Of a stretch of 64,000 nucleotides of DNA, positions 62,585 through 64,000 are shown in pieces. The stretch covers positions 59,936 to 123,935 of the forward strand of contig PNAM01000042.1 of NCBI GenBank assembly GCA_003170275.1, in the 5' to 3' direction. The stretch comes from Myxococcales bacterium (lineage in GTDB: Bacteria; Myxococcota_A; Polyangia; Palsa-1104). The notes under the pieces were generated by a model. It saw only the letters and a program-made list of their open reading frames with translations, did no database searches and was not told the DNA's origin. Position 1 is the stretch's first letter, and each line of letters starts with the position of its first letter. A program made the position numbers and the translations under genes.

Positions 62585-62992
62585 ATGCCAATCTCGAGTA
62601 CCCGCGTCGAGGAATTCATGACCAAGGACGGGTGGCCGTTCGAGCGCGTCGACGATCACACCTGGCGCTCGGGCTTTCGTGGCGACGTGAACAGCTTCCG
62701 CTTCTTCGTCCGCCTCACCGACAACTGGATCTTCTTCACCATCGTGCCGTTCGTGGTCGCGCCCAAGCTCGAGAGCTCGGCGCTCAACCTGTACCGCCAC
62801 CTGCTCAAGCTCAACCGCGAGATCAACATGGCCAAGTTCGCCATCGACGACGACGCGGACGTGGTCCTGACGGTGGAGCTTCCCACCGAGAACCTGGACG
62901 AGAGCGAGTTCAAGGACGCGCTCGACGCGCTCAGCTACTACGCGGACAAGCACTACCTGGACGTGCTCAACCTGGCGCAACGTACGCCGTAA
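62585..62992 (+). CDS. YbjN-domain protein, 135 aa
   Basis: YbjN-like fold (type III secretion chaperone-like): an N-terminal helix (RVEEFMTKDGW), beta strands (FERVDDHTWRSGF, FRFFVRLTDNWIFFTIVPF), a helix with ALNLYRHLLKLNREINMAKF, and strand DADVVLTVELPTENLDE with a final helix. No signal peptide. ATG 62585 is preferred to ATG 62618 (GAGGAA, only 3 nt spacing) because the first helix belongs to the fold and because of the promoter spacing. Function of the family is loosely linked to stress and motility regulation; here unknown. The attenuator of the rimP operon follows directly. Confidence 0.82.
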   Translation: MPISSTRVEEFMTKDGWPFERVDDHTWRSGFRGDVNSFRFFVRLTDNWIFFTIVPFVVAPKLESSALNLYRHLLKLNREINMAKFAIDDDADVVLTVELPTENLDESEFKDALDALSYYADKHYLDVLNLAQRTP

Positions 62993-63002
62993 ACTAGTTG
63001 CA

Positions 63003-63082
63003 GGGCCATATGGATTGTGGTAAATGGCCCTCACCTTTTTAGTGTTTTTACTAAAAGTGGGCTTTCCGCCCACTTTTTTTTT
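63003..63082 (+). promoter_or_regulatory. Candidate attenuator leader of rimP-nusA (three hairpins)
   Basis: Hairpin 1: GGGCCAT (63003-63009) with ATGGCCC (63024-63030). Hairpin 2: TTTTAGT (63037-63043) with ACTAAAA (63050-63056), extendable outward with bulges. Hairpin 3, the terminator: AAAAGTGGGC (63053-63062) with GCCCACTTTT (63068-63077). Hairpins 2 and 3 share 63053-63059, so only one can form. A weak -35/-10 pair, TTGCAG (62998-63003) and TAAATG (63021-63026), 17 bp apart, could start transcription near 63033. Confidence 0.5.
63053..63082 (+). terminator. Intrinsic terminator just upstream of rimP
   Basis: A 10-bp perfect stem (AAAAGTGGGC/GCCCACTTTT), 5-nt loop TTTCC and a run of nine T (63074-63082). 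It is the only clear rho-independent terminator I found. It stands 6 nt before the rimP ATG, so it ends ybjN transcription and must be passed or bypassed to express rimP. Confidence 0.88.
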
Positions 63083-63088
63083 GATGCC

Positions 63089-63589
63089 ATGAAAACAGTC
63101 GACGTCGATAAAGTGACAGCCCTTGCCGAACCCGCGATCCGCGGGTTGGGCTACGAGCTCGTCGACCTCGAGTGGAAGCTCGAGGCCAACGCGTGGGTGC
63201 TGCGCGTCTTCATCGACCGCATCGAGGGTGACGGTGGCGTCAAGCTCGACGATTGCGCGGCCGTCAGCCACCAGCTCTCGGCCACGCTCGACGTCTCGGA
63301 GTTGATCGATGTCCACTACAGCCTGGAAGTCTCTTCTCCCGGGCTCAACCGCCCGCTCAAGAAGGAGTCGGACTTCCTGCGTTTCGTGGGCAAGAAGGCC
63401 AAGATTCGCACCAAGCATCCGGTCGGTCCTGATGAAACAGCGACCCGCCGGAATTTTTCAGGAACGTTGATCGCGGTCGAGAGTGGCAAGGTGCGCATCG
63501 ACGTCGGCGACCAGACCTATGACGTGCCGGTGGACGACGTAGAGAAGGCGAACTTAGTCTTCGAATTCAATAATCAGCAAGGAAGGTAG
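63089..63589 (+). CDS. rimP: Ribosome maturation factor RimP, 166 aa
   Basis: Needed for 30S ribosome subunit maturation. N-terminal domain: [54 protein letters not shown]; then [20 protein letters not shown], the family signature (EVSSPG..RPL), and the Sm-like C-terminal domain. ATG 63089 is used; the supplied longer ORF (63017) runs through the terminator. No Shine-Dalgarno sequence fits between the T-run and the ATG. nusA follows 4 bp downstream, as is usual. Confidence 0.94.
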
Positions 63590-63593
63590 GAAG

Positions 63594-64000
<407 letters not shown>

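Follow-up and report, generated by a model that had tools for sequence, protein, structure and literature searches.

A putative rimP-nusA transcription attenuator with a competing 5' hairpin in Myxococcota

Results

The 3' end of the window, by which we mean the whole 64-kb stretch of DNA analysed here, carries rimP and the 5' part of nusA, preceded by a gene of the YbjN family (Table 1). The contig ends within nusA, so infB is out of view at this locus. The stop codon of the YbjN gene lies 5 nt before a predicted -35 element, and a short, predicted leader RNA that ends in an intrinsic terminator lies between this element and the rimP start codon.

Table 1. Genes and predicted regulatory features around the start of rimP (positions are those of the window).
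Feature	Position	Strand	Sequence or evidence
YbjN-family gene, upstream of rimP	62585..62992	+	Pfam YbjN 1.1e-11
Predicted -35 element	62998..63003	+	TTGCAG; 17-nt spacer to extended -10; plan common to most class leaders
Inverted repeat, formerly read as a third hairpin	63002..63031	+	AGGGCCAT/ATGGCCCT; inside promoter, probably untranscribed from it
Predicted extended -10 element	63018..63026	+	TGGTAAATG; hexamer 63021-63026; promoter score
Predicted leader RNA	63033..63082	+	start about A63033 to end of T run; spacing from -10
Alternative hairpin (putative antiterminator)	63034..63060	+	arms CCTTTTTAGTG / TACTAAAAG(T)GG; covariation in relatives
Intrinsic terminator stem-loop	63053..63077	+	AAAAGTGGGC-TTTCC-GCCCACTTTT; pairs almost invariant in relatives
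Terminator T run	63074..63082	+	nine T
rimP	63089..63589	+	Pfam RimP_N 2.7e-25; RimP C-terminal domain 4.2e-15
nusA, 5' part	63594..64000	+	Pfam NusA_N 1.4e-19; runs off window

A previous interpretation of this DNA, made from its letters alone and hereafter called the sequence-only reading, had placed a strong terminator just before rimP, with no promoter between the two. Both statements hold, as the T run ends 6 nt before the rimP ATG and a promoter is predicted directly upstream of the leader instead. Folded alone, the terminator reaches -14.8 kcal/mol (z -5.3 vs shuffles), and its stem, GTGGGC..GCCCAC, contains the conserved GGGc..gCCC motif of the known rimP-leader. Only GATGCC (63083-63088) separates the T run from the ATG, and this segment is devoid of any Shine-Dalgarno-like sequence, so that translation of rimP on read-through mRNA must begin in another way.

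RimP was located in 138 of the 144 genomes of the window's class, the corresponding leaders were fetched, and the 134 leaders with a terminator were analysed. They follow a common plan, namely an extended -10 promoter (TTGC-N17-TGnTA), approximately 20-40 nt, the terminator and rimP, the median distance between the -10 element and the terminator stem being 27 nt. GGGC was present on the left side of the stem in 72 of these 134 leaders, and GGGC and GCCC together in 48. The best promoter match had a 17-nt spacer in 119/134 leaders, mostly as TTGC..TGnTA, compared to 47% in shuffles, and such near-constant spacing would be hard to explain otherwise than by a promoter. Promoter scores of 11.5 or more were reached by 87% of the leaders, against 2% of more distant upstream positions and 5% of shuffles, and the window's own score was reached at this one site only on either strand of the 64 kb; as the score was designed after inspection of the sequences, against which the controls guard only partly, these figures are supportive and not independent. 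With a promoter at this position the RNA should start near A63033, and we infer this nucleotide as the approximate start site; the conserved block begins there as well, and the match to a covariance model described below covers 63033-63080. The class scan found no terminator upstream of rimP in G090, G124, G132 (f21), G047, G049, G051, G052 and G115; loss or replacement of the attenuator, or a terminator overlooked by the scan, may explain this. Moreover, RimP_N was matched in none of the seven family f35 genomes searched (G157, G173, G177, G180, G200, G204 and G215), each at least 91% complete; RimP has possibly been lost in this lineage or has strongly diverged.

The sequence-only reading had also listed a third hairpin among the leader elements. 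While the inverted repeat exists, it overlaps the -35 and -10 elements of the class-conserved promoter, and its most likely place is 5' of the start of transcription. The nearest relatives showed no equivalent of it. Given its position in the promoter and this lack of conservation, we rejected it as an RNA element.

A second hairpin, which would use the left arm of the terminator, proved to be real, even though the limits initially assigned to it (63037-63056) were too short. This alternative hairpin reaches -9.7 kcal/mol (z -3.3 vs shuffles) and has AAAAGTGG (63053-63060) in common with the terminator's left arm. The overlap is partial in the window, meaning that the proposed mutual exclusion of the two hairpins applies to part of the terminator stem, whereas the upper half of the alternative hairpin can coexist with the terminator; indeed, the lowest-energy full fold has it beside a 7-pair terminator stem. 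According to free-energy calculations, the terminator is favoured over the full antiterminator by about 7-8 kcal/mol. Since, in addition, the stems are only partly shared, the antiterminator cannot win at equilibrium unaided, and read-through needs either timing (kinetics) or a bound factor. In step-by-step folding, the alternative hairpin appears to be complete when the free RNA reaches about 63062; its lower part would then give way to the terminator upon emergence of the right arm.

The alternative helix was followed in 11 relatives whose leaders have a ACATTTTT-type start. In these, 97.3% of the cells of the helix were paired, with 7 double-sided changes, and the covariation value of 0.351, compared with 0.174 in shuffles, was reached by none of 500 shuffles; sliding the partner abolished the pairing. 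The terminator was nearly invariant in the same comparison. The sequence-only reading had made its case dependent on conservation of the alternative hairpin in relatives, and in these 11 the pairs are kept with compensatory changes.

At the level of the class, dinucleotide shuffling was applied to the sequence preceding the terminator arm in 114 leaders from 19 families. Capture of the terminator arm was significant at p<=0.05 in 23 of the 114 leaders (5.7 expected) and at p<=0.01 in 12 (1.1 expected), and the mean of the 19 family means was z -1.23 +/- 0.38. The signal came mostly from families f1, f3, f6, f14, f16, f22 and f23, and in f16, f6 and f14 the competing helix spans the terminator arm largely or completely; in families f2, f5, f10 and f13 the competing hairpin was not beyond chance in this shuffle test. 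In the f8 leaders (L179, L180, L181, L193, L194 and L207, from genomes of about 11-13 Mb), TTGCCTTTCGC..GCGAGCAGGC could span the entire terminator arm, a pairing with a plausible energy that did not differ significantly from shuffles. The class was also compared, under identical settings (25 nt, mononucleotide shuffles), with an out-group of contig-scan matches with RimP, mostly from Gammaproteobacteria. This comparison gave a family mean of -1.03 +/- 0.41 for the class (-0.61 +/- 0.13 over all leaders) and -0.16 +/- 0.13 for 70 mostly gamma- and betaproteobacterial leaders, in which the terminator is present and, for the set as a whole, no competing hairpin exceeded chance. Two types of terminator, AAATGGGC..GCCCATTTTT and CCCCG..CGGGG, directly precede rimP in the gamma- and betaproteobacterial leaders L029-L099.

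A covariance model of the hairpin and terminator core had one match in the genome of the window (E 2e-13), the next one (E 2.6) being at chance level, and this single match led us to reject a multi-copy regulon. Among 285 genomes of the phylum the model had 25 matches at E<=0.01. Such a search had been proposed by the sequence-only reading, and 20 of the 22 non-training matches lay just upstream of rimP, within a few hundred bases. Two phylum matches, L242 and L247, are not followed by rimP and probably arose by chance. Family f33 does not belong to the class of the window, and its arms are TTTCGC/GCGAAA in place of TTTTAGT/ACTAAAA, so that the pairing persists although the letters differ; within f33 the sequence was too conserved to show covariation. 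Altogether, conservation, covariation and phylum-wide location support an attenuator in the rimP-nusA leader that includes a competing hairpin, as had been suggested from the window.

Discussion

Feedback of NusA on its own operon is a proposal that is decades old, and NusA is known to aid RNA hairpin formation in the RNA polymerase exit channel. In the survey by Naville and Gautheret (2010), rimP ranked first among the attenuated genes, and NusA feedback was proposed for the resulting rimP-leader, which was described from species including Firmicutes and Gammaproteobacteria and carries a conserved GGGc..gCCC terminator with, in its general form, no visible antiterminator (PMC2965389). The leader in the window resembles the rimP-leader in having its terminator directly upstream of rimP-nusA-infB, with GGGc..gCCC arms and a T run, as well as in the distance from terminator to gene (6 nt, compared to 4-130 nt in PMC2965389), and the location by which the rimP-leader is defined, an intrinsic terminator in the rimP 5' UTR, is also found here. 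Unlike the rimP-leader, it carries at its 5' end a competing hairpin that is conserved and covaries, and its hosts are Myxococcota; the lack of a visible antiterminator in the general rimP-leader was, however, reported as a trait and is not strictly required. It also differs from the gammaproteobacterial rimP-leader, where an antiterminator goes with a second, upstream terminator (PMC2965389). The Rfam family RF01770 shares with the window the terminator and the position upstream of rimP, yet the window scores 15.6 bits, below the gathering score of 47. No Rfam match above threshold was present in the window, and none at E<=0.1 in 20 related loci. The sequence-only reading had referred to a known rimP leader from alphaproteobacteria, which appears to be mistaken, as the leader has been described in Gammaproteobacteria and Firmicutes (PMC2965389; RF01770 'Gammaprotebacteria rimP leader') and we found no alphaproteobacterial description.

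Two individually studied operons can be compared as well. For the Streptococcus agalactiae genes gbs0413-0418 (rimP-nusA-infB), PMC4448216 reports termination 31 nt after the start and proposes NusA feedback; the leader is thus very short, like that of the window, but its description there mentions no antiterminator and the phylum is distant. In the Escherichia coli operon metY-rimP-nusA-infB, the terminators t1 and t2 precede rimP (PMC6511841), and NusA feedback on the rimP-nusA operon was described (Bylund 2011, as cited in PMC4448216). In contrast to the 50 nt of the window, the E. coli leader holds the metY tRNA gene and RNase III sites. Our literature search, largely limited to open-access papers, found no description of a rimP attenuator in Myxococcota. 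A rimP attenuator is known in general, and the two-hairpin version with a competing 5' hairpin, present in many Myxococcota, appears to be undescribed.

With moderate confidence, we favour a compact transcription attenuator of rimP-nusA in which an antiterminator competes with the terminator and NusA is the likely effector. Transcription would start about 20 nt before the terminator stem, giving a leader of about 50 nt as a whole. The antiterminator hairpin would arise early, while the remainder of the leader is still to be synthesised, by pairing of the first ~11 nt of the RNA with the terminator's left arm. The emerging right arm would then invade this hairpin, and the finished terminator would release the polymerase immediately ahead of the rimP ATG. 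How strongly rimP, nusA and the genes behind them are expressed would depend on how often the terminator is completed, and the competition between the hairpins would control this output. Plentiful NusA would favour the terminator, and when NusA is scarce the antiterminator would hold and allow read-through. NusA is a natural candidate because of the position of its gene, the feedback in E. coli and the proposals made for the rimP-leader and for S. agalactiae; both its role as the effector and the direction of its effect are inferred.

A simpler explanation, which we regard as unlikely, at perhaps one chance in four, is a plain NusA-stimulated intrinsic terminator, with the upstream hairpin serving as a pause or protein-binding hairpin or as a stacking aid to terminator folding. 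The side-by-side arrangement of both hairpins in the lowest-energy fold speaks for this explanation, and it agrees with the several families of the class in which the competing hairpin is not significant and with the gamma- and betaproteobacterial rimP terminators, which do without such a hairpin and are nevertheless thought to be regulated (PMC2965389). Against it stand the maintenance, in 11 relatives, of the pairs that overlap the terminator arm, and the extensive competing helix of families such as f16, f6 and f14.

Two further possibilities concern the terminator as a whole. It could end the YbjN gene, which is co-directional and stops ~60 nt before the terminator stem, and play no regulatory role for rimP, whose own promoter would be elsewhere. 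The mere 6 nt between T run and ATG fit this poorly, and promoter and terminator stay with rimP where the upstream gene differs: in 7 of the 8 loci tested the upstream neighbour is divergent (nitrilase, trigger factor, release factor, ThiC or a sigma factor). Because the upstream gene changes and is mostly divergent, the terminator belongs to rimP; we rejected its role as the end of an upstream gene and consider this possibility highly improbable. The compactness of the promoter-terminator unit would suit a separate small RNA of ~50 nt with a function elsewhere, rimP expression being leakage. However, the unit is tied to rimP and has no further copy in the genome, a fixed location that a small RNA would leave unexplained, and beyond its paired arms the leader shows no sequence conservation from one family to another, all of which makes a small RNA very doubtful.

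Returning to the attenuator, its antiterminator 5' arm consists of the first ~11 nt of the predicted RNA, often starting with ACATTTTT, and it is conceivable, if quite a long shot, that the switch reads the RNA start itself. If this were true, the choice of start site, slippage on the T run or loss of the first bases would destroy the antiterminator and force termination, and nusA expression would be coupled to nucleotide supply or to 5'-end processing.

In the loci examined, the terminator has remained with rimP while the upstream neighbour has changed, which points to selection on the control of rimP. The finding extends the rimP-leader family to Myxococcota. Moreover, no RNA switch was visible in the common form of that family, and the 50-nt leader with its phylogenetically supported competing hairpin offers a minimal and directly testable system for a general termination factor that would tune its own terminator.
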